A stretch of 64,000 nucleotides of DNA from Flavobacteriales bacterium UBA1494 (lineage in GTDB: Bacteria; Bacteroidota; Bacteroidia; Flavobacteriales_E; Vicingaceae): contig CAJJAT010000014.1 of the NCBI GenBank assembly GCA_905182175.1, positions 62,001 through 126,000 of the forward strand, given 5' to 3'. Shown here in pieces: positions 12,861-41,277 of this stretch. A model generated the notes under the pieces. It saw only the letters and a list, made by a program, of their open reading frames with translations. It did not search any database and had not been told where the DNA came from. The stretch's first letter is position 1; every line of letters begins with the position of its first letter. The translations under genes were made by a program, and so were the position numbers.

Positions 12861-12924
12861 TTTTTTGAAAGGAAATTGCGATCAAATCGACAATGTTACC
12901 TCCAACAATCTTTATTTTAAAAGA

Positions 12925-13905: not shown

Positions 13906-14111
13906 AATCAATTTCTATATAAAAGGAATTCAAAAGTAATAAATTGACAACAAAGTATCACTTACTATGTTTCTATTTTAGTTTGTCACTGTTCAAAAAA
14001 AAGATTTGCCTCAATACGCTGTTTTTAATTAATTTCGTTGTCCTTCGATGCTAACCAATCGACTATACTTAATATCTTATAAGTAAATAAGTTAATTTAA
14101 AAAATTCAATT

Positions 14112-14852: not shown

Positions 14853-14855
14853 GAC

Positions 14856-15815: not shown

Positions 15816-15894
15816 AAAATTAGAATAAAAACTATTGCACGGTTCACTTCAACTGCACAAGCAAGAGTTTTTGTTTTTTATCTTACTATTTTAG

Positions 15895-16494: not shown

Positions 16495-16503
16495 GCTCTT
16501 CTT

Positions 16504-17949
16504 TTGAAAAAAAACACATCCATCCTTGTCCTTTTACTGTGCTGTTTCGTACCTTCAGAAGCAATCGCACAAGTCAGCGAGACAGCCTCAATAGCTCCAT
16601 CAGAAGGCTTTTCTGTTACTTCTTTAATGAGAGGAATTGTTGGAATGGTGTCGTTGCTATTGATTGCATTTTTATTTAGTGCAAACCGAAAAGCAATCAA
16701 TTGGCGTACAGTTGGAATTGGATTACTGTTCCAAATTGTGATTGCCATTGGTGTCTTGAAAGTGCCTTTTATTCAAGGAATTTTTGGATTTATTGGTAAG
16801 ATCTTTGTAAAAATATTAGAGTACACACAGGCAGGTAGCCAATTCTTGTTTCAAGGCTTGGTGGTAGACATGGATACCTTCGGATTTATCTTTGCTTTTC
16901 AAGTACTGCCAACTATTATTTTCTTTTCTGCTTTAACCTCGGTCTTGTTTTATTTGGGAATTATTCAGAAAGCTGTAAAAGCTTTTGGCTGGTTACTCTC
17001 CAAATTATTGCACATTTCTGGACCTGAAAGTTTAAGTGTTGCCGGAAATATTTTTTTAGGACAAACGGAAGCCCCTCTCTTAATTAAGGCCTACCTAGAC
17101 AAAATGAACAAGAGTGAAATTCTCTTGGTTATGATTGGTGGAATGGCAACTGTTGCCGGAGCTGTGCTTGCTGCCTACATTGGATTTTTAGGTGGCGACG
17201 ATCCTGTCTTGCGATTGGTTTTTGCAAAACACTTGTTAGCAGCATCGGTTATGGCTGCACCTGGAGCCATTGTAATCTCAAAAATACTGTACCCGCAGAC
17301 TGAAGAAATTAATACAGACGTTAGTGTTTCTTCAGATAAAATTGGCTCTAACATTTTAGACGCAATTGCAAACGGAACAACAGAGGGGTTAAAGCTTGCT
17401 GTTAATGTTGGCGCCATGCTGTTGGTATTTGTTGCCTTTATTGCACTTATTAATGGAGGACTTGGAGCCTTAGCTTCGTTTAATGGTTTAACAGTTGATG
17501 CACTTGGCATAGACTGGCACTTTACATCGCTAAATGAAGTAATAGCTAACAATACCTCTTATAAAAGTTTGTCGTTAGAATTTATTTTAGGAACCGTATT
17601 TGCGCCTTTAATGTGGTTAATTGGCGTTGCTAAAGAAGACATGATGTTAATGGGGCAGCTTCTCGGAATTAAGCTTGCAGCTAGTGAGTTTGTAGGCTAC
17701 ATTCAATTGGCCGGCCTTAAAGACGTAACCAACGCCTCTCATTTACACTATGAGAAATCTGTTATTATGGCAACCTACATGCTCTGTGGTTTTGCCAATT
17801 TTGCTTCTATTGGCATCCAAATTGGTGGCATTGGTTCACTTGCTCCTGGGCAGCGAAAAACCCTTTCTAAATTTGGTTTGAAGGCTCTATTGGGTGGTTC
17901 AATCGCCTCGTTAATTTCAGCCACAGTAGCCGGAATGATTTTAGGGTAA
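16504..17949 (+). CDS. nupC: Concentrative nucleoside transporter (NupC/CNT family)
   Basis: The 481-residue cation-coupled nucleoside importer has the core motifs GQTEAPLLIKAYL (nucleoside site), GTVFAPLMWLIGV and GFANFASIGIQIGG. The start is TTG at 16504. The resulting N-terminus reads as a cleavable-type signal sequence (basic, hydrophobic, then PSEAIAQ) before the first family TM helix, an extension seen in some Bacteroidota homologues. The location fits salvage together with the deoxynucleoside kinase upstream. Confidence 0.92.
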   Translation: MKKNTSILVLLLCCFVPSEAIAQVSETASIAPSEGFSVTSLMRGIVGMVSLLLIAFLFSANRKAINWRTVGIGLLFQIVIAIGVLKVPFIQGIFGFIGKIFVKILEYTQAGSQFLFQGLVVDMDTFGFIFAFQVLPTIIFFSALTSVLFYLGIIQKAVKAFGWLLSKLLHISGPESLSVAGNIFLGQTEAPLLIKAYLDKMNKSEILLVMIGGMATVAGAVLAAYIGFLGGDDPVLRLVFAKHLLAASVMAAPGAIVISKILYPQTEEINTDVSVSSDKIGSNILDAIANGTTEGLKLAVNVGAMLLVFVAFIALINGGLGALASFNGLTVDALGIDWHFTSLNEVIANNTSYKSLSLEFILGTVFAPLMWLIGVAKEDMMLMGQLLGIKLAASEFVGYIQLAGLKDVTNASHLHYEKSVIMATYMLCGFANFASIGIQIGGIGSLAPGQRKTLSKFGLKALLGGSIASLISATVAGMILG

Positions 17950-18234
17950 CACTCTACTTCTTCCTAACCAACTGATTGTTTGCCAATCAGTAATTTATTG
18001 TTATTTTTCAGTATTGGTTTGTAAGTGTTTACAAACAGTAGTAAACGTGATTGCGTTTATGCAAGTGGTATGGGCAATTAAACCGAAAAAAATACTCAGT
18101 GAAGCAACCGACTTAATCGGAATAAAAATATAGACTGAAAGCAAGTATTCGGACAAAGATTATTCATAGCTGGACAAAAAATAGACCTGAACAATCCTGA
18201 AAATAAAGTAAGGCAAACATAAATATTTAGCAAA

Positions 18235-18768
18235 ATGAAACAAATTACATTAACTATGATTGCGATTTTGGTCGCATTTTCCTCATATGCAGGAGACGTT
18301 TTGACATTGAACAATGAAAAAGTATTTGAAGGAAAAGTAAAAAGAATTAAAGATTGTTCTGTAGTTTTTAAAGCAGATGGACAGAAATATGAAATACCTG
18401 CATCGGAAATATTTTCTATGAGGTTTGAAGATACAGAAGATAAGGTATATACTAATTATTTAGAATTACTTGAAAATAACGGCAACAATAAATGTTTAAA
18501 TGGACAACTTGATGCTGAGAATTTTCACGGCAAAAAGGGTGGACACTTTGTATTAGGTTTTTTGTTTGGTCCATTTGCTATGATAGGAACAGCTCTTGCA
18601 AACCCAACACCATACAAAGGAAAGCAAACTTATATGATGTCTAAACACAAAGATGAATTTAGCGATGCTGAATATTTATCGTGTTATAAAAAGAAAGCAA
18701 AAAGTCAATTAATAGGGACGGAAGCCCTGGGTTGGGGAACTTGGATCTTATTATTGCTAATTTTGTAA
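18235..18768 (+). CDS. Small exported protein of unknown function
   Basis: The 177-residue protein has a signal peptide of about 19 residues (ending SSYAG). Residues 20-70 are a compact beta-rich region (DVLTLNNEKVFEGKVKRI). A glycine-rich hydrophobic hairpin follows near residues 102-125 (GGHFVLGFLFGPFAMIG), and the C-terminus is hydrophobic (ALGWGTWILLLLIL). That pattern suggests an envelope protein tethered by one or two helices. I recognise no family. It is the first gene of the accessory island, and an attC-like palindrome follows it. Confidence 0.6.
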   Translation: MKQITLTMIAILVAFSSYAGDVLTLNNEKVFEGKVKRIKDCSVVFKADGQKYEIPASEIFSMRFEDTEDKVYTNYLELLENNGNNKCLNGQLDAENFHGKKGGHFVLGFLFGPFAMIGTALANPTPYKGKQTYMMSKHKDEFSDAEYLSCYKKKAKSQLIGTEALGWGTWILLLLIL

Positions 18769-18816
18769 AACAGAATAAAAGCCCATATCAAACTGTAAAA
18801 GTAATAGTGGGTTAGT

Positions 18817-18955
18817 TTGCGCAGCGTTGTGGCTCGTAGGTTACCTGCCAAATCTTTCGATTTGACTTAAAAGTGGAGAAAGATTTGGCTACTTGGCAAA
18901 TTGAAAGTTTATCGCTTCGTAATCCGCTACTACTCTTACAGCAATCGTTATGCAC
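18817..18955 (+). repeat. attC-like palindromic element A
   Basis: This imperfect inverted repeat of about 139 bases has a perfect inner pair, GCCAAATCTTTC (18847-18858) and GAAAGATTTGGC (18878-18889). Looser outer arms begin at TTGCGCAGCG, and the right end is CGTTATGCAC. The core GTTATGC is identical to that found in Vibrio attC (VCR) sites. It separates two unrelated genes, as cassette recombination sites do. No integrase is visible, so the role is inferred. Confidence 0.5.
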
Positions 18956-19011
18956 AATAAATCACTTACGAAATAGAAATGCTAAAATTCAATTGCAAAT
19001 GGGGGTATAAA

Positions 19012-20634
19012 ATGCAAATAAATTTGACAAAAAGAATAGTCATTTTGACAATGGCTATGTACTCTTATAATATAGTAGATGCCCAATCTTGGAGCAAATC
19101 ATTTACAGCGGGAAGCTACGACTCAAATAAGAAATTATTAGGTGGTTCGGAGGTCCTGCAGTTAGTTGACCATAAAAACATACTATTTGCTTCTGTAGGA
19201 TACTGGGAAGACGCTAATAACATTTGGTATGGTGGTTCAAATAGTAACATTGGATGGGGTCAGGTTAATAGACTAGATAATCCTTCTGCTAATTGGCAGG
19301 AAGATTTGTTTCTTGGTGCAAGCTTTCTTCGACCTGAAATTCTTAAACAAATAATTTTCACAAAAGACCAGTTTGGCAGTTCACTGTCATCTCCAGATAC
19401 AGTTTTGATTTGCGCAGGATACTCGCCAAACTATATTACTAGACAAGTAATTGTAAAAAGTTTCGTAAGAAATGATGTGAATGGAACTTGGGGAGAAAGT
19501 CAAATTGTGCAAGGGAGTTTCCCTGCAGGTGAAAACTATTCCATAAGAGATATTGAAATATATGTAGACCAGCAAACTGGATTAGAATATGTTTTTGCTA
19601 CCGTCGGAACACAAGGCATTTACAAAGGGAAATATAATCCTGTAGCTCCAGGTAAAATCAATTGGATTCCGACAGCAGAATTTGGCCCCCTAAATATTAG
19701 GTCTTTAGGTATTGAAGTAGCAAATAGCGCTCTCCACTTTTCGTCAGGAAGTAAGCTCTATAGACGTATTGACGGGGTTTCACCAAGCTATGTTATAGAC
19801 CATGACTTTAGCGACCTAGGTGCTACAATCAATTCTGCTGTAGGCGGAATTAGAGGGTTAACAACTATCGATAATCCTAGTGGGATTGATGATGCGTTTC
19901 TGCTGATGTGGTGTCCTAATGGTCAGTCTCAAGGAACTATTTACCGTCTCGAACCAGACGGCAGCGGAGGCTTCAATCGTATTTATGAAGCTAAATTATC
20001 TATATTGATTGAGCGTTTTTTAGTAGGTTCAAATGCGAGTTATGTGCTTGGAGCATACAATGAGTTTTACAAATATATTGAGCCAATAAGTAACGATACT
20101 ATTCACCTAGTTGGCTTTGAAGTAAATATAACAGGTGGTGGTCATCCTACATGGAACGGTTACTACAAAGGTGGTTTGTTTGCTAAACGAAATTCTAACA
20201 GTCAGTATTCAATAGAAGAAATAAATGGAACTATCGGCACAAATGATACTGCTTTAGTTGCCAACAGGTGTTATGTGTCATCTCCATTTTCAACTGAAAA
20301 CGCTCTCTATTTTGGTGGTTTTGATCCAAATAGTAACTCTTCAACAAACATGGCTTGGGTGTTTAAGAATACCTATCACGTTAATGCGGTAGATGACCTT
20401 GCTAAAAATGAAAACAATTTTGTTATTTATCCGAATCCTTCTAGCAATCAACTTTTTATTAAACGTAAAAATTTTGAAGAATTTGAATTTGACATTATTA
20501 ATCTTTTAGGAAAGAAAGTAGCATCTGGCAAGATAAATGGGCAAACTAAAACGGTTGACATTTCATCTTTACCTCCAAATATTTATATTCTTAGAATTGA
20601 TAGTGAGGCGGTTAAATTTGTCAAAGTAAACTAA
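19012..20634 (+). CDS. Secreted protein with T9SS type A sorting domain
   Basis: The product is about 540 residues. The ATG at 19012 is preferred because it has a purine-rich GGGGG ribosome site just upstream and gives a proper signal peptide (ending YNIVDAQ). The central 400 residues are beta-rich and may form a beta-propeller. I recognise no catalytic site. The last 75 residues are a type IX secretion sorting domain (FVIYPNPSSNQLFIK, then VDISSLPPNIYILRI and KFVKV), so the protein should cross the outer membrane by T9SS and stay on the surface or be released. It lies between attC-like elements A and B. Confidence 0.8.
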   Translation: MQINLTKRIVILTMAMYSYNIVDAQSWSKSFTAGSYDSNKKLLGGSEVLQLVDHKNILFASVGYWEDANNIWYGGSNSNIGWGQVNRLDNPSANWQEDLFLGASFLRPEILKQIIFTKDQFGSSLSSPDTVLICAGYSPNYITRQVIVKSFVRNDVNGTWGESQIVQGSFPAGENYSIRDIEIYVDQQTGLEYVFATVGTQGIYKGKYNPVAPGKINWIPTAEFGPLNIRSLGIEVANSALHFSSGSKLYRRIDGVSPSYVIDHDFSDLGATINSAVGGIRGLTTIDNPSGIDDAFLLMWCPNGQSQGTIYRLEPDGSGGFNRIYEAKLSILIERFLVGSNASYVLGAYNEFYKYIEPISNDTIHLVGFEVNITGGGHPTWNGYYKGGLFAKRNSNSQYSIEEINGTIGTNDTALVANRCYVSSPFSTENALYFGGFDPNSNSSTNMAWVFKNTYHVNAVDDLAKNENNFVIYPNPSSNQLFIKRKNFEEFEFDIINLLGKKVASGKINGQTKTVDISSLPPNIYILRIDSEAVKFVKVN

Positions 20635-20690
20635 TGTGCATGATAAAATCTACCCTACATTAAAACGCAGTGTAGTTAAACGTTGTATGC
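20634..20690 (+). repeat. attC-like palindromic element B (compact)
   Basis: This short imperfect palindrome directly follows the T9SS gene. The arms CTACATT and AGTGTAG pair around ACGC, and outer complementarity links AATGTGCAT with ATGCCATT. The right end is the core GTTGTATGC. The Crp-like gene starts 22 bases later. At under 60 bases it is in the range of small attC sites. Confidence 0.4.
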
Positions 20691-20711
20691 CATTCGACAT
20701 AAGCATCAAAA

Positions 20712-21182
20712 TTGAGAACATTAAAAGTAAAAAAAGGACAATTAATTCAACGTCAAGGAGAGCTTGACTCAAAAGTATATAAGGTTGAATCTGGTTTATT
20801 ACGCAGTTATTCAATTGACGACAAAGGCAAAGAACACATTTATATGTTTGCACCTGAAAATTGGCTAATGGCTGATAATTGTGATGTCAAAAGACCTTGT
20901 GAATTATTTATAGACGCATTAGAAGATTCTGTACTTATTGTTTCTGAGAAAGCGGAAACAATTCAAAATGCAGATGTTCATTCCTTGGTGAACCGACTAT
21001 TAACTTTACAACATCGAATTATCAAGTTAATGAGTTCAAGCACTATTGAGCGTTATGAAGACTTTATTGCGACATATCCCGGCATTGTACAACGAGTGCC
21101 TCAAAGAATGATAGCCTCCTATTTAGGTATTACCCCCGAAGCTTTAAGCAAGGTAAAAGGCGATAAAGCCAGGTCTAAATAA
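20712..21182 (+). CDS. Crp/Fnr-family transcriptional regulator, short form
   Basis: The 156-residue protein has an N-terminal cyclic-nucleotide-binding-like barrel (KKGQLIQRQGELDSKVYKVE, then SYSIDDKGKEHIYMF) and a C-terminal helix-turn-helix (VPQRMIASYLGITPEALSKV). It is about 30-40 residues shorter than typical family members because the first helix is missing. The only start in frame is TTG at 20712, and a stop lies four codons upstream. It may be a genuinely short subfamily, or it may have lost its beginning when the cassette boundary formed. The ligand is unknown. It precedes two decayed membrane-protein genes that it may once have controlled. Confidence 0.75.
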   Translation: MRTLKVKKGQLIQRQGELDSKVYKVESGLLRSYSIDDKGKEHIYMFAPENWLMADNCDVKRPCELFIDALEDSVLIVSEKAETIQNADVHSLVNRLLTLQHRIIKLMSSSTIERYEDFIATYPGIVQRVPQRMIASYLGITPEALSKVKGDKARSK

Positions 21183-21265
21183 TTCCGTTTGACTCATTTC
21201 TTAATTTATAGTAATGCAAGGCTTTTAATAAGCACTCATCTTCGCATTTTATTAAACTTTAAGAA

Positions 21266-21653
21266 ATGAAACATTCACACGAAACACAAATTGGTAAACC
21301 AAGAAAGATTGCAGGGTAATCACTTTCAGTTATACCATCAATAATGATTCTAATGCCAGGTGTCACTACGCTTTTGGGAACAGAAGAAATGATGCACAAC
21401 TTTGCTAATCTGCCCAATTGAGAGGATAAAATACTTTTTGTAGGCGCATTAGAATTAGTCATTCTTGTGCCTTATTGGCTAACCAAAACAATGAATATGG
21501 GGGTTTTTTTAATGCTTGGGTTTATGGGTGGTGCTTTACTTGCAGAAGTCGTACTGAAAGGCGGAGTGCCCATTCCTGCAATCTTTGTAAACCTCTTTGT
21601 TTTAAATCGGTACATTGCTTAGAAAACCTTCTTTATCGGGACTTTCAATTTAA
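21266..21653 (+). pseudogene. Decayed DoxX-like membrane protein gene
   Basis: From ATG 21266 one frame gives MKHSHETQIGKPRKIAG, then stops at 21317 (TAA) and at 21419 (TGA, in place of a likely Trp in LPN-W-ED), and then continues GALELVILVPYWLTK and GALLAEVVLKGGVPIPAIF. Near 21604 one extra A shifts the frame. Correcting it restores the tail LIGTLLRKPSLSGLSI and a stop at 21651. The whole matches a DoxX-like protein of about 128 residues with four TM helices. Two nonsense codons and one frameshift make it clearly non-functional. Confidence 0.8.
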
Positions 21654-21672
21654 AGCACTACATTTTAAAAAA

Positions 21673-22101
21673 ATGAAAAGTACAACAATTCGCCCGAAAC
21701 AAGTAAAATGGTTAGCTATACTAATCTTGTTAACCACAAGTCGTTTTTCCGTAGTTACCTATTTCCCAGGTTTAGAGATGCTAGGAGGTCCAGACCCCAA
21801 TGAGTGGTTTGGCCATTAGGTAACAGACACTACCTTGGGTTTATTGGATCCATTTATAGCATATTTAGCCTATACGAAAACAGGATTAAGACTTTGGGGA
21901 GCATTAATTACCTGCAACTGTATTGATGCGTTTGACTATGCAAACGGACTATTGACGGAGTACCTTAGTCATCAAATATCTAATCCACCAGAAATGATTT
22001 TTGGTGCAATTGCCCTTTTCTTTTGTGTTCAATTAGTGGATATTTATTTATTATTGTTTAAGAAGAATGTAATCAATCATTTTTCGAAAGTTAGCTCGTA
22101 A
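21673..22101 (+). pseudogene. Membrane protein gene interrupted by one stop
   Basis: One frame runs from ATG 21673 to TAA 22101, broken by a single TAG at 21817 (after EWFGH). The two halves read MKSTTIRPKQVKWLAILILL and GLLDPFIAYLAYTKTGLRLW, and the C-terminus is a hydrophobic helix followed by Lys-rich residues. With read-through it would be 142 residues with three or four TM helices. I do not recognise the family. It sits next to the decayed DoxX-like gene, so the pair probably decayed together. Confidence 0.65.
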
Positions 22102-22384
22102 ATAGAAAATAATTAACAACCGAAAATACGAGTTTGCATTTTAAACTTTGCTTTTTATTTACCCTATTTTCACGTTACATTCTAAACGTCTAATGCCTTT
22201 AATAACAGAAATACCAAGTCTTTTACAAAATCTAGCATTGAGTTTAATTCTTGTTCCCTTAACGGTTTGAATTTATATCCCTTTCATAAATAAGAAATTT
22301 TTTTCATTGGCTAAGAAAATAAAAAACGGCATTTAGCATAGAACTGAGCCAAAAAACAAATATTTCTTTACCTTTTTTTAAATT
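22102..22384. other. Intergenic stretch with weak coding remnant
   Basis: From 22194 a short plus-strand frame reads MPLITEIPSLLQNLALSLIL and, past a TGA, IYIPFINKKFF. This looks like the end of a small membrane protein, but it is too short to name. No strong palindrome or promoter is apparent. Confidence 0.3.
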
Positions 22385-23343
22385 TTATGCAACCAATTTA
22401 ATTTTATATTTTTCATCATATGGTAATCCTAATTTAGCAATGCTAAAAGCTTGAACAACTAACTTATTACATACAGCAATTAGTGCTAATTTCTTGCTTT
22501 TTCCTTTTGCAACTATTCGCTCATATAGCGCTTTACATGCAGGATTGCAATTGCTAGCAATAAATCGGCACATGAGTAGATGATTTCTGATTAAGCCATT
22601 TCCTGATTTACTAATCCGACTAACTTCTTTCACACTGCTTCCTGAGACTCTCTCTGCTGGCGCAAAACAATAGAATAACTTTAATTTACTTGCACTCTCA
22701 AAATCATTAAACCCATTAGAAATAACAATTAAAAAAAATGCCATTTTACGGCCTATTCATAAGATTGAAGGGATGTGAGTCAGCATTTCACGTTCATTTT
22801 CTTTTATCAAAGCCTCTTCTAACTTTTTTATCTCTAATTGAATCGCCTTTTTATACCGTTGTAAATGGCTTAGCCAACACTTTGTATTGCTCCCTTTGAC
22901 TGTAAACTATGAGGCCTATTACTCGATGTTGTTTGCTGCTTAAAGTAGGTTCTTATACGACTTTTTAGCATTTTGAAGCAATCTATCTACTCAGGATCAG
23001 GCTGCCCTATTTCTAAGGTCTGAATAGAGCGATAGAGTGCAATCATTTTTGCATCACTCAAGTCTGTTTTATAGCGCTGTAATTTTATATGGATAAATCC
23101 CTTTACATCTAATTCATTTACAACGCTTAATTGAATTCCTTTGCTCGGCAGAAACGCAGCTAATTGCTGATGGTAGCTCACAGTATTTTCCATAACACAC
23201 CAAAAGCAAGAGTTTAACCATTTCTTAAAAGACTTGAAGCCTTCAATATCATTAGCAAACTGCTCATGCCCCATTGAAGGAGCATAAACATCGCAGATAT
23301 CTTTTGATAAGTCACTACCTACAAATAATGTATTTCTGCTCAT
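22385..23343 (-). pseudogene. IS110-family transposase remnant
   Basis: Reading leftward from 23343, the first 118 residues (SRNTLFVGSDLSKDICDVYA, then KTDLSDAKMIALY) are the DEDD/RuvC-like N-terminal catalytic domain of IS110 transposases. After a region of about 240 bases with frameshifts and stops (22745-22986), the C-terminal Transposase_20 domain follows at 22744-22385. It contains SVKEVSRISKSGNGLIRNHLL and AKGKSKKLALIAVCNKLV, including the Ser in GSSVKE. The gene is about full length but disrupted in the coiled-coil middle, so it is inactive. IS110 elements lack clear terminal inverted repeats, and I could not define the ends. Confidence 0.85.
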
Positions 23344-23562
23344 AACATAATGTTTTGAAGAATATAAACTACCTGATTACAACAACCTAAGACGGGCTGT
23401 ATAGGCCCCAAAAACCGATCGTAATTAAAATAGTAAAAGAGCGGGGATCTACAATGTTGACGGAATTCCTACTTCCAGTATATAAAATCATCTTGTTACG
23501 CTCCTTTGTTCTTTAATTTATATTCTAAATTTCAAAAGATTAAAGAAATACAAGCTTAGGAT
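23344..23562. other. Non-coding stretch between the IS110 remnant and element C
   Basis: It contains no sustained frame. It probably includes the right flank of the IS110-like element, but no end could be fixed. Confidence 0.35.
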
Positions 23563-23750
23563 GTATATAGCAAATAGGGAGTTTGGTGGTTTAATAACGT
23601 TCAGTGTTATTTACCAACACCGCCAAATCGTTGATTTGGCTTTTACAATGAATAAGATAAAAACAAAATACACCGTTTTAGCTCAGTGCAAACTTAAAAG
23701 CTTATCGCTTTCTACCGCCCTACTCGCCATATACTAACCGTTGTATTTAA
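23563..23750 (+). repeat. attC-like palindromic element C (long)
   Basis: The outer arms are GTATATAGCAAATAGGG (23563-23579) and CCCTACTCGCCATATAC (23718-23734), complementary at 14 of 17 positions. An inner perfect hairpin, GCCAAATC-GTT-GATTTGGC, lies at 23622-23640. The right end is AACCGTTGTATTT, matching the GTTGTAT core of element B. The inner GCCAAATC hairpin is shared with element A, so A and C belong to one repeat family. The XRE-type gene lies downstream. Confidence 0.55.
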
Positions 23751-23989
23751 TGCCTAGGTATTTCTAAATCAGCAAATCTTCAGCTTATAAATAAAGTCGT
23801 TTTAATTAAAAAAACAGAATGTTATGTTAACATAAACCTGAACACTTACTGAAGTACAAAATGGAATAAATATGGAATTTAACGCGTGTCGCATTGCTGT
23901 CATATCTTTATAGTGTATGTGTCATATCGCTTTCAATATAAAGGAAAAGTAACTATTTAGATTTGCATAAAACTTAAAATGCTAAGAAT

Positions 23990-24415
23990 TTGTATTCTAA
24001 CCCAACCAACTTAAGAAATATTAAAAGAATGAGATTAGAGCGTCATTGGTCGCAGGAACAATTAGCGGAAATGAGCGGAGTAAACATAAGAACTATTCAA
24101 CGAATAGAAAACGGAGAAAATGCTGGTTTAGAATTATTAAAATCTTTGGCATCTGTCTTCGAAACTAATATTACAGATTCAGATAAAAAAGAAGAAATAG
24201 AACAAATTAGAAAAAAAGAAGAACATGTTCAAAATGTAAAAGGGTTTTATGTATTTATTGCGCTAGCGATATTAAGCTTGGTTGGGTTTTTTATTATTGC
24301 GCTTTTTAATTCTGATTCAGAGGGCTGGGCACTATTTTTCTATATGCTGATTTTTTATGCGCTTGCTCTGGGAGCTGCTTTTCTTAATGTTTTTGATTTG
24401 TTTGGAGAAGATTGA
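23990..24415 (+). CDS. XRE-type helix-turn-helix regulator with two membrane helices
   Basis: The 141-residue protein has a Cro/XRE HTH at residues about 8-60 (LERHWSQEQLAEMSGVNIR, TIQRIENGENAG). A charged linker rich in Glu and Lys follows, then two hydrophobic helices at about residues 82-102 and 112-132. It is probably a membrane-tethered regulator, a layout known for small HTH-DUF proteins in Bacteroidota. The start is TTG at 23990. A later ATG at codon 14 would cut into the HTH. It is a single-gene unit bounded by elements C and D. Confidence 0.75.
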   Translation: MYSNPTNLRNIKRMRLERHWSQEQLAEMSGVNIRTIQRIENGENAGLELLKSLASVFETNITDSDKKEEIEQIRKKEEHVQNVKGFYVFIALAILSLVGFFIIALFNSDSEGWALFFYMLIFYALALGAAFLNVFDLFGED

Positions 24416-24504
24416 AAAGAAAGATGATTGATGAAAAATTCAAAAAGAAATAATGATTTTTAATTAGTCATGACGGATAACAAACCGAACAAAAAAGGCA
24501 CTAA

Positions 24505-24644
24505 AGACAACCACGTGTATGGCTTATTGCGCCTGAATTACTTAATCAAGTTTTAATACTTATTTTATATATTTGTGTCAAACCTGACAAATATGCCTGT
24601 CTCTAATCCGCAACAAGCCGAACACCGGCCGTTGTGCGTTATAC
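24505..24644 (+). repeat. attC-like palindromic element D
   Basis: The arms GGCTTATTGCG (24521-24531) and CGCAACAAGCC (24609-24619) match at 10 of 11 positions. Outer partners GACAAC (24506-24511) and GTTGTGC (24631-24637) give the RYYYAAC...GTTRRRY-type ends expected of attC. The total length is about 140 bases. It directly precedes the serine hydrolase gene. Confidence 0.55.
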
Positions 24645-24718
24645 GAGAAAGCAAAATCAACAATTCCAATATCGGAAAGCCTATAAATGTTCTAGGCAAG
24701 CATCAAATAAATATCGTT

Positions 24719-25861
24719 GTGAAAAAAATAATATTAACATTCTTCTTTTTTGCTTCCATTAGCAATGTGTATTCACAATTTGAAAAAATAGAAACATTCC
24801 AGAAAGATCTTATCGAAAATGAAATTACTGGAAGTAATGTTGCTCTAGTTTTTAAAGATGACAAAGTAATATACCATCATATAGAAAATTCCAAGAATCC
24901 GAACGGAAAAGCAATTGACAAAAACACTATATTTCCAATATGGTCTATGTCAAAACCGATTACCATTGTGGCAATGATGATACTGCATGAAAGAGGGTTA
25001 ATTAATTTTGAAGATAAAGTATCTAAATATATTCCAGAATTTGAAAACCTTACGTGTAAAGGAGAAGACGGTATTTACAAATGCAAGAAAGATTTGACTT
25101 TGTTTCATTTAATGACACATAGGTCCGGATACAAATATTATGAGAACCCAGAATTTTTTACAAGTACAGTAAAATACGATAATCTAAAAGACTTTGCTTC
25201 AGATGTTGCAAATCATCCTGTAGAGTTTGAGCCAGGTTCAAAGTATAAGTATGGTATTAATATGGCTATACTTGGTAGAGTAGCGGAAGTTGTGTCAAAG
25301 AAAAATTTTTATGAGTTTTTAAACCATGAAATTTTTAATCCCCTTAACATGGCGGAAACAAAATTTCATTTAACAGAAAGTGATAGAGAAAATTTTCAAC
25401 CACTGTATATTAACAATGAAACTATTAAGGGTTTTACGAATGAGCTTGACGAGCTAACCTATGACATCAACAATAAAGCATATTTTGGTGGCGAAGGTTT
25501 AGTTTCCACATTAAATGACTATTCAAGTTTTTGCCAAATGTTATTAAATGAAGGAATATTTAAAGGGCAAAAAATAATATCACAAGAAAGTATCGATATG
25601 ATGACAAGGCCCTATTCAAAAAATGATGACAACGGCTTTGAGATAGGTTTTTCTTTTTTTGTATTAACAGATCCCGATCGTGACGGTACAAATTCACCAA
25701 AAGGCATCTTTGGATGGTCTGGTGCTCATAATACTCATTTTTGGATTGATTCAGAGAATGATTTGTATGGTGTATTTATGACTCGAGCAAGAGACTTCTC
25801 CTTTGAAATTTCAAAAGATTTTAGAAAAGCAGTTTATAGTTCATTAAAAAGTGAAAAATAA
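24719..25861 (+). CDS. Exported serine hydrolase of the beta-lactamase (class C/DD-peptidase) fold
   Basis: The product is 380 residues. I set the start at GTG 24719, giving MKKIILTFFFFASISNVYSQ, a clear signal peptide. A longer reading would run back through attC-like element D and is rejected. Motif 1 SxxK is SMSK with FPIW before it, motif 2 YxN is YGIN, and GAHNT near the C-terminus occupies the place of the KTG/HxG motif. This fits the Pfam Beta-lactamase family, which covers class C enzymes, esterases and D-aminopeptidases. True beta-lactam hydrolysis cannot be told from sequence. It is a single-gene unit between elements D and E. Confidence 0.85.
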   Translation: MKKIILTFFFFASISNVYSQFEKIETFQKDLIENEITGSNVALVFKDDKVIYHHIENSKNPNGKAIDKNTIFPIWSMSKPITIVAMMILHERGLINFEDKVSKYIPEFENLTCKGEDGIYKCKKDLTLFHLMTHRSGYKYYENPEFFTSTVKYDNLKDFASDVANHPVEFEPGSKYKYGINMAILGRVAEVVSKKNFYEFLNHEIFNPLNMAETKFHLTESDRENFQPLYINNETIKGFTNELDELTYDINNKAYFGGEGLVSTLNDYSSFCQMLLNEGIFKGQKIISQESIDMMTRPYSKNDDNGFEIGFSFFVLTDPDRDGTNSPKGIFGWSGAHNTHFWIDSENDLYGVFMTRARDFSFEISKDFRKAVYSSLKSEK

Positions 25862-25927
25862 TATCGTCTACGGTAAAAATAATTGGTGCTGCAAATTTTT
25901 ATGGCCCAAATTAAATTAGAAGTACAA

Positions 25928-26064
25928 AGGCACAAAACATCATATAAGCTATGGCTTGGTCAATGCCTACTTGGAAAATTCTGCAGATTTATCAAATCCA
26001 GTTTTTATTTGGAGAGGTTCGTGACGAGACACGCCACAGCTTATATACAAAAAACGTTGTGCAC
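25928..26064 (+). repeat. attC-like palindromic element E
   Basis: The arms ATATAAGCTATGGC (25942-25955) and GCCACAGCTTATAT (26033-26046) are complementary at 13 of 14 positions. The left outer end GCACAAAAC and right core GTTGTGC (26056-26062) pair as attC-type ends. The element is about 137 bases, close in size to A and D. It follows the hydrolase gene and precedes the extra DHFR gene. Confidence 0.6.
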
Positions 26065-26327
26065 AGTAATGAAAATTGTGCCAAATTTCGAAATCGGAGT
26101 TGAGAAGCTAGCCGCACAAACAACGCATTTTTTTTGCCGAAACAAAAGCCAATGCTCGAAAAAATCAGACTAAAATCACGGAGTAGGTGATTACTCAACT
26201 TTTAAAATAGCGCTCAATTTTAGCAAACATCAATAGAATAAAAGAAATAATACAGTTTTTAGAAGATTAAAGCGAAATGTGTTAAAGCATATAATTTCAA
26301 CTATTATTGAGACCAATAATAAAACCA

Positions 26328-26825
26328 ATGAACAAAATTATAATGATAGCAGCAGCAACGGAAAACAACGCCCTGGGAAAAGACAACACCGTACCTTGGA
26401 ATCTACCCGACGACTTTAAGCGGTTTAATAAACTAACTACGGGCCATAAAACTATTATGGGGCGAAAAACTTTTAAGAGCATGCCCACGCTTTTAACTAA
26501 CCGTGCACATATTATAATTACAAAGGATAAGAATTATAAAGTCGCTTTTGACGAGTGTATTGTTGTGCATTCATTGAAAGAAGCAATTGCACTAGTAGCG
26601 AACGACGCCTTGTCATTTATTATTGGCGGAGGGGAAATATACAAGCAGGGTGAGAAATTTTCGAATGGGATTGAACTTACGCGTATACATACCAATTTTG
26701 AAAATGCCGATACCTTTTTTCCGGCTATTGACCTAAATGTTTGGAAACTTGTTTCAGAAAAACATCATTCAGCGGATGATAGACATGCCTCTGCTTTTTC
26801 GTATTTAACTTATACGCGGAAGTAA
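26328..26825 (+). CDS. Second dihydrofolate reductase (accessory copy)
   Basis: The 165-residue DHFR starts MNKIIMIAAATENNALG. It carries the Trp/Pro pocket (VPWNLPDDFKRF, with the catalytic Asp), GRKTFKSM and the cofactor motif SFIIGGGEIYKQ. ATG 26328 is chosen because the preceding seven codons are not family-like. It differs strongly from the chromosomal DHFR at 42395-42895 and sits alone among cassette-like repeats. This is how trimethoprim-insensitive dfr genes are usually carried, but insensitivity is only an inference. Confidence 0.88.
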   Translation: MNKIIMIAAATENNALGKDNTVPWNLPDDFKRFNKLTTGHKTIMGRKTFKSMPTLLTNRAHIIITKDKNYKVAFDECIVVHSLKEAIALVANDALSFIIGGGEIYKQGEKFSNGIELTRIHTNFENADTFFPAIDLNVWKLVSEKHHSADDRHASAFSYLTYTRK

Positions 26826-27305
26826 TCACTTTTCGTTTAAACACCTAGCTCTTTATTTTCGTATTATCTCTAATCTACTTATGAAGCGAACGAATAAAAT
26901 AAGGATGCGAAAATAATTCTTTACGTTGCACTTTAACTACTCTTGACTTTTTTTTAAAATTACACTTGGAAGAGAAATCTGGTAGATGTAATTGTCGAAA
27001 TTGGACTTATTGCAAGCCTATTTATGAATAGAACAAAAAGCTCACGCTACTCCAAAAATTGCAAAAGCCTATGTTTTGCCAATACTTATGACAGAAAACA
27101 TCGGAAACCAAACAGAACGCAAGCGCTATACACAACACCGGTAATCGTTGCACAACCCTATAATTTGGATAAGAACAAGCTCATTTAAGCCATTTTAAGG
27201 AAGGGTTTAATTTAGTTGAAGTCGATTTAGAGTCTAATTTTCTAAGCTTAAAGTTGAATTTATAATCTCTAAAAGCACCCTTTTTACAAGCCTAGTCAAG
27301 GCTCT
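26826..27305. other. Non-coding stretch with a half attC-like site
   Basis: No sustained frame is seen. At 27114-27156 there is a sequence like the right arm of the other elements (GCGCTATACACAACACCG, then CGTTGCACAAC), but the matching left arm was not found. It may have been truncated when the adjacent IS1182-like element inserted or decayed. Confidence 0.35.
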
Positions 27306-28640
27306 TTACCTTACTTTTTGCAGTTTTTGAGTAAATTTTAGGTATTTCTTGAGATTGTACGCAATGCCAGCGATCATCATCCATTTATTTGCTTGTTTTA
27401 TTCCTATAGTTTTCACTTTGTACGTGCCCATAAATTGAGTTAGTGTGCCAAATACAGTCTCTACGGTACTTTGTCGGTTCCCTTTTCATGTACACTTACC
27501 TAATGCACTCCTTACTCGCTTTGCGTTACGTTCATATTCTACTCTGTGGTGCGTTACTGAGAACTTCTTTTCTTTGGTTCTTGCACCCATGCATCTACTT
27601 AAAAGCGGAGATCTTTTGCATTGATAAGTTGTTCCTCGGTATTCTTTCTTTAAAGTTTGTGTTCACGAATCTCTGAACTCTTTGGAAACAGGTATCTTTT
27701 CTCTGGTTGGATAAGGGTAATAATCTTATTCTTTGTTGTAAACAAAACCGTCAGGACCTCCCTTTTATGGGCCATGTGGAGCAATATAACTCTCTACGCC
27801 TATCTTCTCTAAAGATGCATAGTTCTCATCACTGCGGTGACCGGTATCTGCTATGCAATTGCGCCATAACAAGCCCTGCTTTTGTAGGCGAGGTTTTAGC
27901 CGTTTTACAATGACTTGTAAATACCGATTGTCTCACCCATCAACATGATACGCTCTAATGTCTGTGATTACATGCTACCCCATATCTTCACTCAGCTGAC
28001 TTCGGTAATTTAACTTCCTCGCCTTCCCAGGTTTTACACTTATTCGATCATCAGGATCGCTTGGGCTATAATGCGTCTTGTTATTCGTATATTTTGCGTT
28101 ATTCCTTCCCCCTCCTTGGCGCATGTTGTGGTCTTTTGACCATCTTCTTGGACTTACTTGCTATAACCTATAATTATACTTTATTTGCGCTATTGCTGCG
28201 TTGGTCCTAATCTGATTTATCTTGCTACGCCTTACGTTCTGAGTATTCTTCTTTATCTTTTGTGCTAATGTGACGGATTTTATGGAGGTGTTCTTCTAAA
28301 CTCTCTGCAGGCACTTTTAATTCGAACGTATCCATAGAAGCATTCGCTTTTACCGGGGCAGAATCTATCGCCTGTGCATGACCGCTTAACATTCCCTTTC
28401 TACACACATCTTTAGAACTTCGGTGAACACTTCTTCAAATAACTCTTCAGAAAATAGCTGTCGAGTTATACTTATTGTTGAATGCCAAGGTAAATCATCA
28501 TCGATGTCATACCCTAAAAGAAAAAGAATATCTAAGCACTTACTACAATGGGTTATAAATTTTCGATCGCTAATTCTGTTCTCCATATAGCCCCCCAAAC
28601 AAAGCTTAAAAAATACAATTGGGTCGATACTCTTTTGTCC
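27306..28640 (-). pseudogene. IS1182-like DDE transposase remnant
   Basis: On the minus strand the N-terminal part reads SIDPIVFFKLCLGGYMENR, then LGYDIDDDLPWHSTISITRQ. A stop and frame change follow, then GHAQAIDSAPVKANASMD, the catalytic-Asp region of DDE_Tnp_1 enzymes. The middle (about 27500-28220) has many stops. The C-terminus reads STVETVFGTLTQFMGTYKVK, then IGIKQANKWMMIAGIAYNLK, and ends at TAA 27306. The order and the DUF772-type N-terminus match the IS1182/IS5-like group. The copy is badly decayed, and terminal repeats were not identified. Confidence 0.8.
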
Positions 28641-28855
28641 ACTTGTTCAATAACATGGGCCGTTTAAAAATATAAATAGTCCAAGTTTGGTATTCCTCGA
28701 AGTTGACGGTAAAAGTTTTCCTTAGCCACTCAATTACTTAAAGAAAAGGAAGCAAATAGCTTCTCTTGGTAATGTTTCTTGCCTTGCATACTAAGAGGCT
28801 AAGCCTTTAGGCCTTTATTCCAATTGTTTCAACTTCTCCTTATTAACATTAACTT

Positions 28856-28916
28856 GTGCAACATGCACACTATGTAAAACGCATCGAACACGCATTTTAC
28901 ACTAAACGTTATATGG
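28856..28916 (+). repeat. attC-like palindromic element G (compact)
   Basis: The arms GTAAAACGC (28874-28882) and GCATTTTAC (28892-28900) form a stem with one G:T pair. The left end is GTGCAAC and the right end AACGTTATATGG. The length is about 60 bases. It lies just upstream of a small membrane-protein ORF, the same layout as the other elements. Confidence 0.4.
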
Positions 28917-28955
28917 TGTTTAAAAAAACAAGATGATTAACCATAGAATAGCGAA

Positions 28956-29141
28956 ATGAATAATACTTCAACAAAATCCTCATATAATATTTACCCTGCC
29001 ATTTTAATAATTGTTTTATTGCTAATAGAAATGGAAATAATTGACCATTTGTTCCCTTATCCAGGCTTTGGGGTAGTCGTTTCTTTCCCTACTATATGGG
29101 CTCTGTTCTGTATTTATCATTTCGGGGATATTCTTAACTAA
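28956..29141 (+). CDS. Small membrane protein of unknown function
   Basis: The 61-residue ORF has two hydrophobic stretches (IYPAILIIVLLLIEMEII and VVVSFPTIWALFCIYHF) separated by a short loop. It begins 40 bases after attC-like element G, where a cassette gene would be expected, which favours it being real. No family is recognised. Confidence 0.5.
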   Translation: MNNTSTKSSYNIYPAILIIVLLLIEMEIIDHLFPYPGFGVVVSFPTIWALFCIYHFGDILN

Positions 29142-29455
29142 GAAATTGAAGTTTAAATCACGAACCGCAATTTGATTGATAATATTTATAATAAACTCAT
29201 TCTTTGTAGCTCAATTCTACCCAAAACAAGTTGGATTTACAGTTTTTTAAAAAATCGTACATACATATGCTGTCATTAATAATTATGAAAAAATTACCGA
29301 AAATGATTTAGAACATTATTTACAAAACTGCAAAGAAATTGTGTAAATTGGTGTATTGAGAACATTATGTTCAATCAATACCTAACTAGTCTTATACGGT
29401 GCTATAAGTCATTATGAGTCCTACTGAAAATAGTATAAGCTAAAAAATATTAATT
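29142..29455. other. Non-coding stretch with an unidentified remnant
   Basis: A short plus-strand fragment near 29268-29345 reads AVINNYEKITENDLEHYLQN and ends in a stop. It could be the tail of a lost gene. Nothing else is recognisable. Confidence 0.3.
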
Positions 29456-29887
29456 ATGTACACAATAGTTTATGGTTCAACTGCAAATCGGGATTTAACT
29501 GCTAAGGATAATTCAAATATTTTAGAAACGTCGCTCGATTTTAATGAAAAAAACGACGTTTCAGGATGTCTTATTTATCACAATCATAGGTTTGTTCAGA
29601 TATTGGAAGGTGACAAAACTATAGTAGAAGAACTTTATTTAAATATCAAAAAGGATAAGCGTCATTCTGATGTTACACTTTTATATAACCCTTCTAAAAG
29701 AGAAAGAACCTTTAGTAATTGGAGCATGGCTTTTATTGATCTTAGCATTGATAATGATAACACTGAAGAACGTAAATTATTCAAAACTAATTTAATTACT
29801 TATTCGGAATTAGCAGAGACATCTGACCAAGCATCGGCAATATTTTGGAGTGAAGTAAAATTGATTTTAGAACAAAACAACTTATAA
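29456..29887 (+). CDS. BLUF-domain blue-light sensor protein
   Basis: The 143-residue protein is almost entirely one BLUF domain, which binds FAD and senses blue light. The key residues are visible. The N-terminal Tyr is in VYGSTA, the flavin-contact Asn in FNEKNDVSG, the Gln in FVQILEGD and the Trp/Met pair in NWSMAF. There is no fused output domain, so it must signal through a partner. The neighbouring genes are decayed, and no EAL/GGDEF or regulator gene lies next to it. It could still act on a distant partner. Confidence 0.88.
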   Translation: MYTIVYGSTANRDLTAKDNSNILETSLDFNEKNDVSGCLIYHNHRFVQILEGDKTIVEELYLNIKKDKRHSDVTLLYNPSKRERTFSNWSMAFIDLSIDNDNTEERKLFKTNLITYSELAETSDQASAIFWSEVKLILEQNNL

Positions 29888-30289
29888 TAAAAAATATAGA
29901 GCATTTGGCAGACCTTACTATTAACAGAGTTGATGGCAATAACTATAGGTTGTATAAAATTGAAAAAATTGAGCGTTGAAATGACAAGCTCCAAAATATT
30001 CAAATCGTTACCGCCAATTAAAAAATGGATAGTTTAAATGTAGCAATTGAAGAATATATCAAAAGCAAACAAATTATACTGTACTAATTAATGGTAAATG
30101 AGTAGTGGGGAAAACTCATTATTATAAATAATGTTCTTAAAAAATCTATTCACAATACTAGCACATATTCTGACAATTCTGTCAGGTATAAATCAGTTTA
30201 TCTATCCCTTTTTGGATTATCTAAACTGAAGAAATTCAGACTCAAATTTTTCTACCAATATGTCCTCTTTTAAAAAACAAAGCATTTAA

Positions 30290-30706
30290 GCTATCTGTAG
30301 GTTTCGGCAAGGCAATTGCAAGATGAATTTTTGCTCTTAAAAACTTAGGGGATATAATAAATATATTTTAGAGGTTACGCAAAAAGAAGATTGAATTGAC
30401 TTAGATCGACGAATAATATACTTTTATGATTTAGAGAGAAGAAATTCAAATTTACCATTGCATGAATTAATTGATTTTATTAATACACTAGTAGAACATA
30501 ATGATGCAAAACAACTCTCATTGCTAATGAAGACAAAGTAAAAGATGATATCTATAAAGATCTGAAAGAAAAAGTTTTGTTGCTCAAGATGAATTTGAAC
30601 CTGATTTAAAAAAAATAAATACAATAATTAATTCTAGATATAGCCCTTCTTTTAAAAACATACTAAAAACGAATCTGAAAAACTGCTAAAACAAGTTCAG
30701 CTTTTA
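30290..30706 (+). pseudogene. Decayed P-loop NTPase (KAP-like) fragment
   Basis: A plus-strand frame gives LDRRIIYFYDLERRN, resembling a Walker B strand of KAP-type P-loop NTPases, then LHELIDFINTLVEHNDAK. After a one-base shift it continues TLIANEDKVKDDIYKDLKEK, a sensor-1-like strand, and after another shift FEPDLKKINTIINSRYSP. A weak GFGKAIAR upstream could be a damaged Walker A. The sequence is cut off at the MITE-like element at 30707. KAP NTPases occur in several anti-phage systems, but this one is broken. The family call is tentative. Bases 29888-30289 hold no recognisable gene. Confidence 0.5.
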
Positions 30707-30843
30707 ATACCAATTAAGTTTTTTATTGCTGCATACCATTGCAAAATTAATTATTTTCAAACGTATAATTGGTGAATTACAACTACTTATATAACGAGCA
30801 AACGAGAAACGAAGTGTGCGACATTAGGTGACTATATCGGTAT
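30707..30843 (+). mobile_element. MITE-like 137-bp element, copy 1
   Basis: The element starts ATACCAATTAAG and ends CTATATCGGTAT, whose complement is ATACCGATATAG, so it has short terminal inverted repeats. The interior (GCTGCATACC, then ATAACGAGCAAACGAG and GAAGTGTGCGACATTAG) is repeated at about 75% identity and nearly the same length in opposite orientation at 50754-50889. It has no coding capacity. It truncates the NTPase remnant on its left. Confidence 0.75.
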
Positions 30844-32567: not shown

Positions 32568-33731
32568 GTGAAGGAATACGTTCAAATATTTGACACTACA
32601 CTAAGAGATGGAGAGCAAGTTCCCGGGTGTAAATTGGGTACCAATCAAAAGGTTGAAATTGCTAAAGAGCTGGAGCAACTTGGCGTCAATGTTATAGAAG
32701 CGGGCTTTCCAATTTCAAGCCCTGGAGACTTTGAAGCGGTTCAGCAAATTGCATCAACGATCAAAGGCACTACTATTTGCGCTTTATCAAGAGCTGTAGA
32801 CAAAGACATCCAATGTGCAGGAGAAGCATTGAAACATGCTGTAAATGGAAGAATCCATACCGGAATTGGAACATCAGATTTTCACATTTTTCAAAAACTA
32901 AATTCGACAAGGGAAAACATTTTAGAGCGAGGAATAAGAGCTGTTAAACTGGCTCGTAACTTGGCTCCAGAGGTAGAGTTTTATGCCGAAGATGCAGGAA
33001 GAACGGACAATAAGTTTTTGGCACAAGTGGTCGAAAAAATGATTCACGCGGGAGCAACAATTATTAATATCCCAGATACAACAGGCTATTGTTTACCCCA
33101 TCAATATGGCGAAAAAATTAAGTATTTAATGGATCATGTTCCAAATATGGACAAAGCAATTCTCTCGACACATTGCCACAATGATCTAGGGTTGGCAACC
33201 GCAAATAGCATTGCAGGAATTCAGGCGGGCGCTCGGCAAATTGAATGTACAATAAATGGAGTAGGTGAACGAGCAGGAAACACTTCGTTAGAGGAGGTGG
33301 TTATGATTTTAAAACAACACCAAGACATTCAACTACATACTAGTATTCAAACAGAACGTCTTACTCATCTCTCAAGAATTGTTGAGTCTGAAATGAACAT
33401 GCAAGTTCAACGGAACAAAGCAATTGTTGGTAGAAATGCATTTGCTCATTCTTCGGGCATCCACCAAGACGGAGTAATAAAAAGCAGAGAGACCTATGAA
33501 ATTATTGACCCTAAAGAAGTAGGCGCAGGCAGCACTCAAATTATTCTTACTGCAAGAAGTGGACGAGCAGCAATAAAATACAGAGCAAAATTATTGCACG
33601 TCGATTTGAGTAAGGATCAATTAGAAGAGGTGTATCACCGCTTCTTGGAAATTGCGGATCGAGAAAATCAAATCGACGATTTACAATTAAAAGAATTATT
33701 AAACAATGTAATAGTATGTCAGGCACAATAA
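32568..33731 (+). CDS. leuA: 2-isopropylmalate synthase, short form
   Basis: The enzyme condenses acetyl-CoA with 2-oxoisovalerate, the first committed step to leucine. The DRE-TIM motif [14 protein letters not shown] is at the N-terminus, and the metal-binding [11 protein letters not shown] and [10 protein letters not shown] follow. At 387 residues it has the catalytic barrel and linker but lacks the C-terminal LeuA_dimer domain of about 120 residues that gives leucine feedback inhibition in the long form. It starts with GTG at 32568 and overlaps leuC by 16 bases. The position at the head of leuACDB settles the function against homocitrate or citramalate synthase. Confidence 0.93.
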
Positions 33732-35083
33732 TCGATAAAATTTGGGATCAACATGTAGTTAAAGCGGTCACCGAAGGAGTTGACGCACTATATATTGACA
33801 CACATTATATTCATGAAGTTACCAGTCCTCAAGCTTTCACCGGTTTAAATGACCGTGGACAAAAAGTCTTTCGTCCAAAGCAAACCATCGCAACCGCGGA
33901 TCACAATGTCCCAACCGTAGATCAGCATTTAACAATTAAAAACGAATTGTCCCTAAATCAAGTTAACACACTAATTAAGAACTGTGTGGACCACAACATT
34001 GAATTATTTGGGATTGGGCATGAAAAAAATGGGATAGTCCATGTTATTGGACCTGAAAATGGACTAACGCTACCGGGAATGACCATTGTATGCGGAGACA
34101 GTCATACATCTACTCACGGAGCGTTCGGAACGATTGCATTTGGAATTGGCACATCGCAAGTAGAACACGTTTTATCTACTCAATGTCTTTTATTGGGCCG
34201 ACCTAAAACAATGCGAATTGAAGTAAACGGAAAGTTGGGAAAAGGAGTCGAGGCAAAAGATGTTGCGCTCTATATCATATCTCAGCTGGGTACAGAAGGT
34301 GCTACAGGGCATTTTGTAGAATTTGCAGGAACGGTATTCGAAAACTTCTCAATGGAAGAACGGATGACCGTTTGCAACATGAGTATCGAAATGGGAGCAA
34401 AAGGAGGATTGGTTGGCATTGATCAAACCACTATTGATTATATCAAAAAACGCATTGACCATTTGAGTGATAAAAAAATTAAGAGCTGGAAACTGTTAAA
34501 CTCTTCGTCAGATGCATGTTTTGATCAGGTGATTGAATTGGAGGCCTCCACCATTACTCCTATGATTACTACCGGGACATCTCCTGATACAGGAATAAAC
34601 ATTACGAGCAATGTAAATTCAACTTCCCGAAATAGCGATAAAGGATTGAATTACATGCAAATTGAAAAGAATGAAGTTTTAATTGGGAAGTCAATTGATT
34701 ACGTATTCATTGGAAGTTGCACCAACGGTAGAATTGAAGATTTACGAAAAGTAGCAGAAATCGCAAAACATAGGAAAAAAGCAGACCACGTTACCGTATG
34801 GATTGTTCCTGGTTCAAATCAAGTAAGAAACCAGGCCATAGCGGAAGGTCTTGATGTTATTTTTAAAGACGCTGGTTTTGAATTTAGAGAACCTGGCTGT
34901 TCTGCTTGTTTAGCAATGAATGAAGACAAAATTCCAAGTGGTGCACTTTGCATTTCCACCTCGAACAGAAATTTTGAAGGAAGACAAGGAGATGGTGCAA
35001 GAACGATACTGGCAAGTCCGATTACTGCTGCAGCAGCGGCAATAAAAGGAGAAATAACAGACCCACGCACCTATTTAAATTAA
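33716..35083 (+). CDS. leuC: 3-isopropylmalate dehydratase large subunit
   Basis: The 455-residue aconitase-family protein isomerises 2- to 3-isopropylmalate with a [4Fe-4S] cluster. Signatures are [20 protein letters not shown], the cluster Cys in FIGSCTNGR, and the Cys pair in [11 protein letters not shown]. It overlaps the end of leuA and is followed one base later by leuD, the small subunit it needs. Confidence 0.96.
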
Positions 35084-35084
35084 T

Positions 35085-41254: not shown

Positions 41255-41277
41255 ATTTGAATTTAGATTCTATTAAA

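Follow-up and report, generated by a model that had tools for sequence, protein, structure and literature searches.

Between the genes for a β-lactamase-fold serine hydrolase (24575–25861) and a DHFR (26307–26825), the window (the whole 64-kb stretch of DNA that was analyzed) contains an imperfect inverted repeat, here called element E. It had been singled out in a first-pass annotation as attC-like and as the best single candidate in the window for a functional recombination site. This raises the question of whether element E is a cassette recombination site and, if so, which enzyme it serves. The reading that we favor, with a probability of about 0.93, is that element E represents the attC that closes the hydrolase cassette on its 3′ side, within an old array without an integrase that belongs to a system with an integron-like layout and a recombinase of the type encoded on contig C44 of the same genome.

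The Hairpin of Element E

The sequences that define the element were located at 25930–25938 (GCACAAAAC), 25942–25955 (ATATAAGCTATGGC), 26033–26046 (GCCACAGCTTATAT), and 26056–26062 (GTTGTGC). The 14-base arms ATATAAGCTATGGC and GCCACAGCTTATAT are complementary at 13 of 14 positions, as claimed at the outset. The hairpin alone proves little, because the 64 kb contains three arm pairs of this quality (13/14, outer span 60–150 nt) and the margin of the fold over shuffled sequences is modest (1.8 SD for the top strand and 2.8 SD for the bottom strand).

The outer ends had been proposed to pair as integron core sites do. The main partner expected for the R″ box in the array is the start of its own cassette, not the GTTGTGC at 26056. 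The expected partner is the GTTGTGC at 24631, where the hydrolase cassette begins, and the pairing as originally drawn holds by coincidence because both positions read GTTGTGC. The R″ box matches its own cassette start at 8 of 9 positions (25927–25935), and some cross pairs match equally well. It reads GCACAAAAC in place of the expected GCACAAC, and because of these two extra A residues element E may be partly damaged.

Cassette Ends and attI-like Sites

If a cassette was once circular, the box at its end must be complementary to its start. The 10–12 nt after each attI junction were therefore compared with the downstream sequence, with words from other genomes as the control. In first cassettes, an exact complement of 9–10 nt was present downstream in 27 of 36 genomes, compared with 3.7% of mismatched pairs, and the longest plus-strand ORF stops 1–28 nt before R″ in 22 of 27 first cassettes. 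All nine consecutive cassettes of Algibacter onchidii passed the same test (cross pairs, 4/91); none of the attC of this species was used to build the covariance model described below. Cassette ends that restore one attC on circularization were thus found in the first cassettes and in A. onchidii, and partly in the cassettes of the window.

At about 40 loci, a conserved attI-like site ending in G^TT lies directly past the stop codon of the recombinase gene. The site has two styles: a palindrome (e.g., GAATAAACGTACC/GGTACGTTTATTC) followed by NNTTGTT, or a sequence ending in TATAAACRAGTT. A test of the palindrome found arms away from the required anchor in the genome's own site and in L045, L050, and L053. 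Past the GTT of the attI, both the sequence and the gene vary by genome. The definition of an integron includes an attI adjacent to the integrase gene, with cassettes joined at G^TT, and that arrangement was observed in silico. Several more distant recombinase loci (e.g., L072, L078, L093, L106, and L108) had no clear attI-like site.

The Recombinase

The genome encodes a 377-residue tyrosine recombinase (Phage_int_SAM_4 and Phage_integrase) on contig C44, 110 bp from the contig's end, and also two Xer-like proteins. An attI-like site lies just past the stop codon of the C44 gene, and this recombinase is most likely the enzyme for the sites described here. On the window's own contig (C14), searches with TIGR02249 and for the recombinase gave no match. 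Of the 46 family genomes, 32 encode homologues, in most cases a single one. The contig end was nearer to the 3′ side of the recombinase gene in 18 of 21 loci (median 3.4 kb, versus 40 kb on the 5′ side; p = 0.0097), as expected if repeats that are hard to assemble come next.

Integron integrases form the IntI family, which is recognized by a unique additional domain (PMC2426708, citing Messier and Roy, 2001). This insertion is absent from the C44 recombinase. The distance from KGxKDR to HxLRHS is 113 residues in canonical IntI of the phylum, 71–72 in C44-type proteins, and 74–79 in the Xer proteins of this genome, and the C44-type recombinases form a clade of 54 (support 0.95) that is separate from IntI (0.91). 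With TIGR02249, the NCBIfam integron model, the C44 recombinase scored 188.3 bits, below the cut-off of 265; its nearest curated family is NF040815 (219.3 bits, cut-off 220). We call the system integron-like because the defining feature of IntI was looked for and is missing, and because no canonical IntI scored above the cut-off in any of the 46 family genomes.

These searches bear on another possibility, namely that the cassettes belong to an ordinary integron, that its canonical IntI has been lost or works in trans, and that the C44 recombinase is unrelated to it. The array, attC, and attI do resemble textbook integron parts, and canonical IntI is present in other classes of the phylum; the same search, which serves as its own positive control, found it above the cut-off in 105 of 395 phylum genomes. 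All but one of these are outside the class, however, none is in the family, and in one genome after another the gene directly at the attI-like site encodes a C44-type recombinase. We consider an ordinary integron unlikely.

XerA was the top match of the recombinase in the PDB. An AlphaFold model contains a standard tyrosine-recombinase core, which resembles both XerA and the 2a3v structure of IntI, and an N-terminal domain of 85 residues (residues 1–85; C44:17715–17970, L065:10001–10258). The pattern of this domain (hydrophobic strand, helix, W, strand, W/Y) is like that of HARP. The match to Pfam HARP (E = 0.12 in one member) and the best Foldseek matches (XPB damage-recognition domain, 2fwr, E = 0.083; SMARCAL1 HARP, 4o66, E = 0.18) are non-significant, and a profile search of the PDB with this domain found nothing believable.

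A Covariance Model of attC

Chain following yielded 33 attC verified at both ends (131–141 nt as excerpted). Only doubly verified sites were kept because an automatic chain walk mis-picked junctions (e.g., L080, L090, and link 2 of L051). A covariance model, R1, was built from 26 of them, all from other Bacteroidota genomes and none from this genome. In the alignment of these 26 attC, 87% of cells at the 16 stem pairs were paired, compared with 26%–37% when slid; 12 pairs had changes on both sides, and the covariation score was 0.466 versus 0.129 for shuffled alignments. The sites are imperfect hairpins with R″ and R′ boxes, conserved AAC/GTT, and a structure kept by covariation, as is characteristic of attC in integrons. 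Among the named loci, all 59 attC matches were on the strand of the recombinase and 57 of them were downstream of it. Matches were found in 41 of the 46 family genomes, with up to 50 in one genome. The mean per genome was 11.5 with the recombinase and 3.9 without (p = 0.011), a modest difference, and attC matches also occur in some family genomes in which no recombinase was detected.

R1 matched three sites in the window, all on the plus strand (Table 1), and nothing else significant in the 64 kb. Element E ranked first, which bears out its standing as the best single candidate, and it was aligned from the first to the last position of this independent model. Its length is 137 nt when measured in the same way as the verified attC. 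It is this match, and not the arms, that lifts element E above chance. The first-pass annotation had reasoned that a conserved fold with variable neighbors would support a cassette site, and attC of this type do covary across genomes and adjoin different genes in each.

A dispersed repeat of the MITE or REP kind with no role in recombination could also be scattered over a genome, as the attC are here (further copies lie on contigs C18, C40, C22, C45, and C6). At the DNA level, however, element E had no copy besides itself in its own genome and the family (46 genomes; the order-level search covered the same 46), and among relatives of the site the fold is kept while the sequence varies. Furthermore, every site goes with a cassette whose ends are complementary, in one orientation and downstream of a recombinase, and we regard a repeat of this kind as very improbable. 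One cross match of element E, in G029, was rejected as chance; it reads as coding sequence.

That element E is instead a transcription terminator or another RNA hairpin belonging to the hydrolase gene, as its position 70 bp past the stop codon and a fold better than most shuffles might suggest, is scarcely credible: the terminator scan gave no terminator-like site there (the first-pass annotation had named a terminator conserved with one gene as grounds for rejecting a recombination site), the arms enclose ~77 nt and are not followed by a T-run, Rfam returned no match, the same covarying structure with its GTT core lies between many unrelated genes in other genomes, and the covariance-model match and cassette-end test already largely refute this idea. 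In integrons a promoter, Pc, drives the cassettes; a general promoter scan and the terminator scan gave no excess over shuffled sequence.

The Array in the Window

The array extends over ~18.03–30.8 kb of the window, with all cassette genes on the plus strand and no recombinase gene (Table 1). A scan for the core motif CGTT-R-T-R-Y found it concentrated on the plus strand at 18.9–28.9 kb, where each copy sits 3′ of a plus-strand gene and of an imperfect upstream partner box. As a definition of the junction, CGTTRTRY was rejected as too narrow, since the letters after the G^TT of the junction vary. The genes between the cores (unknown 177-aa protein, T9SS-tailed secreted protein, Crp-type protein, XRE regulator, serine hydrolase, DHFR, and BLUF protein) are mutually unrelated. 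At the head of the array, the attI-like CGTTTATGCAAGTGGTATGGGCAATT is identical, by eye, to CGTTTATCCAAGTGTTGTAGGGAATT behind the genome's own recombinase at 21 of 26 positions.

Table 1. Features of the Cassette Array, in Window Coordinates
Feature	Coordinates	Strand	Content or basis	Cassette start versus end box (complementary positions)
Decayed attI-like site, array head	18031–18075	+	80 bp past nucleoside-transporter stop codon	
Array-head attI-like junction	18067	+	Reads GGTATGGGC, expected GTTATGGGC	
Cassette 1	18067–18947	+	177-aa gene 18235–18768, no confident family	GGTATGGGC versus GCCCATATC, 18781–18789 (8/9)
attC 1	18780–18956	+	R1, 26.6 bits, E = 7.4e-5	
Cassette 2	18948–20682	+	Secreted protein with T9SS sorting tail (Por_Secre_tail), gene 18979–20634	GTTATGCACA versus TAATGTGCAT, 20632–20641 (9/10)
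Short attC 2	20636–20690	+	Hairpin CTACATT..AGTGTAG, core CGTTGTAT 20681–20688; core motif and fold	
Cassette 3, decayed	20683–23740	+	Crp/Fnr-type gene 20712–21182 (cNMP_binding) and further remnants	Weak
Broken IS110-type transposase in cassette 3	22385–23343	−	Transposase_20 and DEDD_Tnp_IS110 fragments	
attC 3, long type	23545–23746	+	R″ near 23545, core CGTTGTAT 23739–23746; core motif and paired arms	
Cassette 4	23741–24631	+	HTH (XRE-type) regulator gene 23990–24415 (HTH_3)	GTTGTATTTAATGCCT versus AGGCACTAAAGACAAC, 24496–24511 (14/16)
attC 4	24502–24640	+	R1, 39.2 bits, E = 4.7e-8	
Cassette 5	24632–26056	+	β-lactamase-fold serine hydrolase gene 24575–25861, PF00144 E = 8e-50	
attC 5 (element E)	25929–26065	+	R1, 45.7 bits, E = 1e-9, full length, top window match	
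Cassette 6	26057–28908	+	DHFR gene 26307–26825 (DHFR_1 E = 1e-51); attC split by inserted element	GTTGTGCACAG versus CTATACACAAC, 27126–27136 (9/11)
Decayed inserted element inside attC 6	27147–28868		Ends TTGCACAA...TTGTGCAA, read from sequence; boundaries approximate	
attC 6, right half	28869–28914	+	Hairpin TGTAAAACGC..GCATTTTACA, core CGTTATAT 28907–28914; core motif and fold	
Cassette 7, last recognizable	28909–30795	+	BLUF-domain protein gene 29456–29887 (PF04940)	End box 30777–30795, contains TATATAAC; weak

The end match of cassette 4 is clearly above those of other pairs. Sites 2, 3, and 6 were missed by R1; the short attC 2 begins directly past the stop codon and is similar to a short attC repeated in the relative G003. 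The 177-aa protein of cassette 1 had no Pfam match and an NCBIfam match only far below threshold. The hydrolase gene is listed with a GTG start, and its true start may be later, inside cassette 5; no β-lactamase model scored above its cut-off for this protein, and no Dfr resistance model did so for the DHFR of cassette 6. The latter is ~41%–43% identical to FolA of relatives and is one of two DHFR genes in the window, the other being the chromosomal FolA (42395–42895) next to thymidylate synthase. The array is eroded, as seen in the IS110 fragments, the element inside attC 6, and the partial end matches. Another element that recurs where cassettes start, GCCGCACAAACA..GCATTT..TTTGCC....GCCAA.GCTCGAAAAA, was noted by eye past several junctions, at 26104–26170 of the window and at the array starts in L056, L060, and L062.

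Chromosomal Setting

In three relatives from the genus, the transporter gene (16504–17949 in the window) is followed within ~1.6–2.8 kb by thymidylate synthase and FolA. Here these genes lie at 41257 and 42395, 23 kb from the transporter, and the 23-kb insert holds the array and a leucine-type operon. The operon, of the leucine-biosynthesis type (32568–36784; LeuA, aconitase-type, Iso_dh), includes a synthase that is without a match (E ≤ 1e-60) in the five remaining genomes of the genus.

In three species of the genus (the window, G032, and G033), attI-like sites without a recombinase gene share one conserved position between the nucleoside transporter and thyA-folA, at 18031–18075 of the window, ~8030–8070 of L171, and ~8330–8370 of L172. 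The genes that follow these transporter-side sites differ among the three species, and R1 found no attC at that spot in the relatives. Invariant neighbors, which had been put forward as an argument against a cassette site, are therefore not what this locus displays. The array of the window is best described as a cassette cluster without an integrase but with a relic attI.

A Proposed Mechanism

The in silico support for element E as an attC of this system consists of the attI-like sites, the covarying attC hairpins, the complementarity of cassette ends, their orientation, and the turnover of genes; from these we infer the pairing of enzyme and site, the choice of strand, and activity. By analogy with integrons, attC would fold on its bottom strand into an imperfect hairpin in which the outer boxes, R″ (...AAC) and R′ (GTT...), form the recombinase site. 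The tyrosine recombinase would cut between G and TT, excision would join the start and end of the cassette into a circle, and the circle could re-enter at the attI site or at another attC. The C44-type clade of Bacteroidia uses the order integrase, attI, and co-oriented cassettes without the IntI-specific insertion.

Distribution and Cargo

Relatives of the C44 recombinase occur across Bacteroidia, most of them followed by an attI-like site and, where the sequence continues, by cassette arrays in one orientation. Named hosts include Winogradskyella, Arcticiflavibacter, Psychroflexus, Algoriphagus, Algibacter, Mesonia, and Zunongwangia. First-cassette genes include those for the HaeII restriction enzyme, GmrSD, a DNA methyltransferase, an NB-ARC protein, and a ParE toxin. 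A Chryseobacterium plasmid (L235, NZ_CP041688.1) carries at 9968–20096 a recombinase gene, a TATAAACAAGTT-style attI, and five attC downstream on the same strand, and three of its cassettes start with the same GTTGGGAAAAATCGCCCT as the cassette at the attI. Judged by its sequence, this is a putative plasmid-borne integron of the C44 recombinase kind. Two Woesearchaeota contigs (L100 and L104) encode recombinases 42%–43% identical to the C44-type clade.

Together these loci represent a widespread kind of integron in Bacteroidota, apparently undescribed, with a recombinase that does not have the domain defining all known integron integrases. We lean slightly toward a broader proposal: Bacteroidia would have a separate integron lineage, also on plasmids, that uses the same single-strand chemistry, whose recombinase never had the IntI insertion and carries a HARP-like domain for binding forked or folded DNA, and that went unnoticed because finders demand the IntI domain. 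If true, one of the largest bacterial groups of the environment and the gut possesses a widespread integron system with an integrase, attI, and attC of its own and with plasmid copies that would constitute a mobile gene-capture system of Bacteroidota, and the view of the IntI insertion as indispensable for cassette recombination would be in doubt.

Comparison with Known Systems

No description of the present system was found in the literature covered, outside of which lie preprints and most subscription papers. In earlier surveys integrons were nearly missing from Bacteroidetes, with reports at first only of integrases without cassette arrays, and then of one complete integron, in Salinibacter (IntegronFinder 2.0, PMC9024848); a set of taxon-specific attC models has no model for Bacteroidetes (PMC8352920). 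The automatic name attached to NF040815 is "site-specific tyrosine recombinase/integron integrase." XerA acts at dif-like sites. The C44-type gene differs from XerA and archaeal Xer-like genes in being followed by attI-like sites and cassettes and in its N-terminal extension.

Sedentary chromosomal integrons share with the present system a recombinase gene with an adjacent attI-like site and G^TT junction, cassettes that mostly carry a single gene and share one orientation, attC hairpins that vary in sequence and have R″/R′ boxes, and accessory genes that include restriction-modification and toxin genes. The C44-type recombinase, in contrast, lacks the IntI-specific insertion (71 aa versus 113 aa), belongs to a separate clade, is ~60 aa longer, has the N-terminal domain, and is transcribed toward attI. 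Treponema uses a canonical IntI. In Treponema-type integrons, too, intI is transcribed toward attI (PMC3607928), and the integrase gene, attI, and array run in one direction as they do here. Clusters of attC without an integrase are known as CALIN (PMC9024848), for which the criterion is at least two attC <4 kb apart with no integrase nearby. The array in the window qualifies, with attC at 24502–24640 and 25929–26065 and no recombinase gene; it differs from CALIN in that it keeps a decayed attI-like site and its attC are of the Bacteroidota type.
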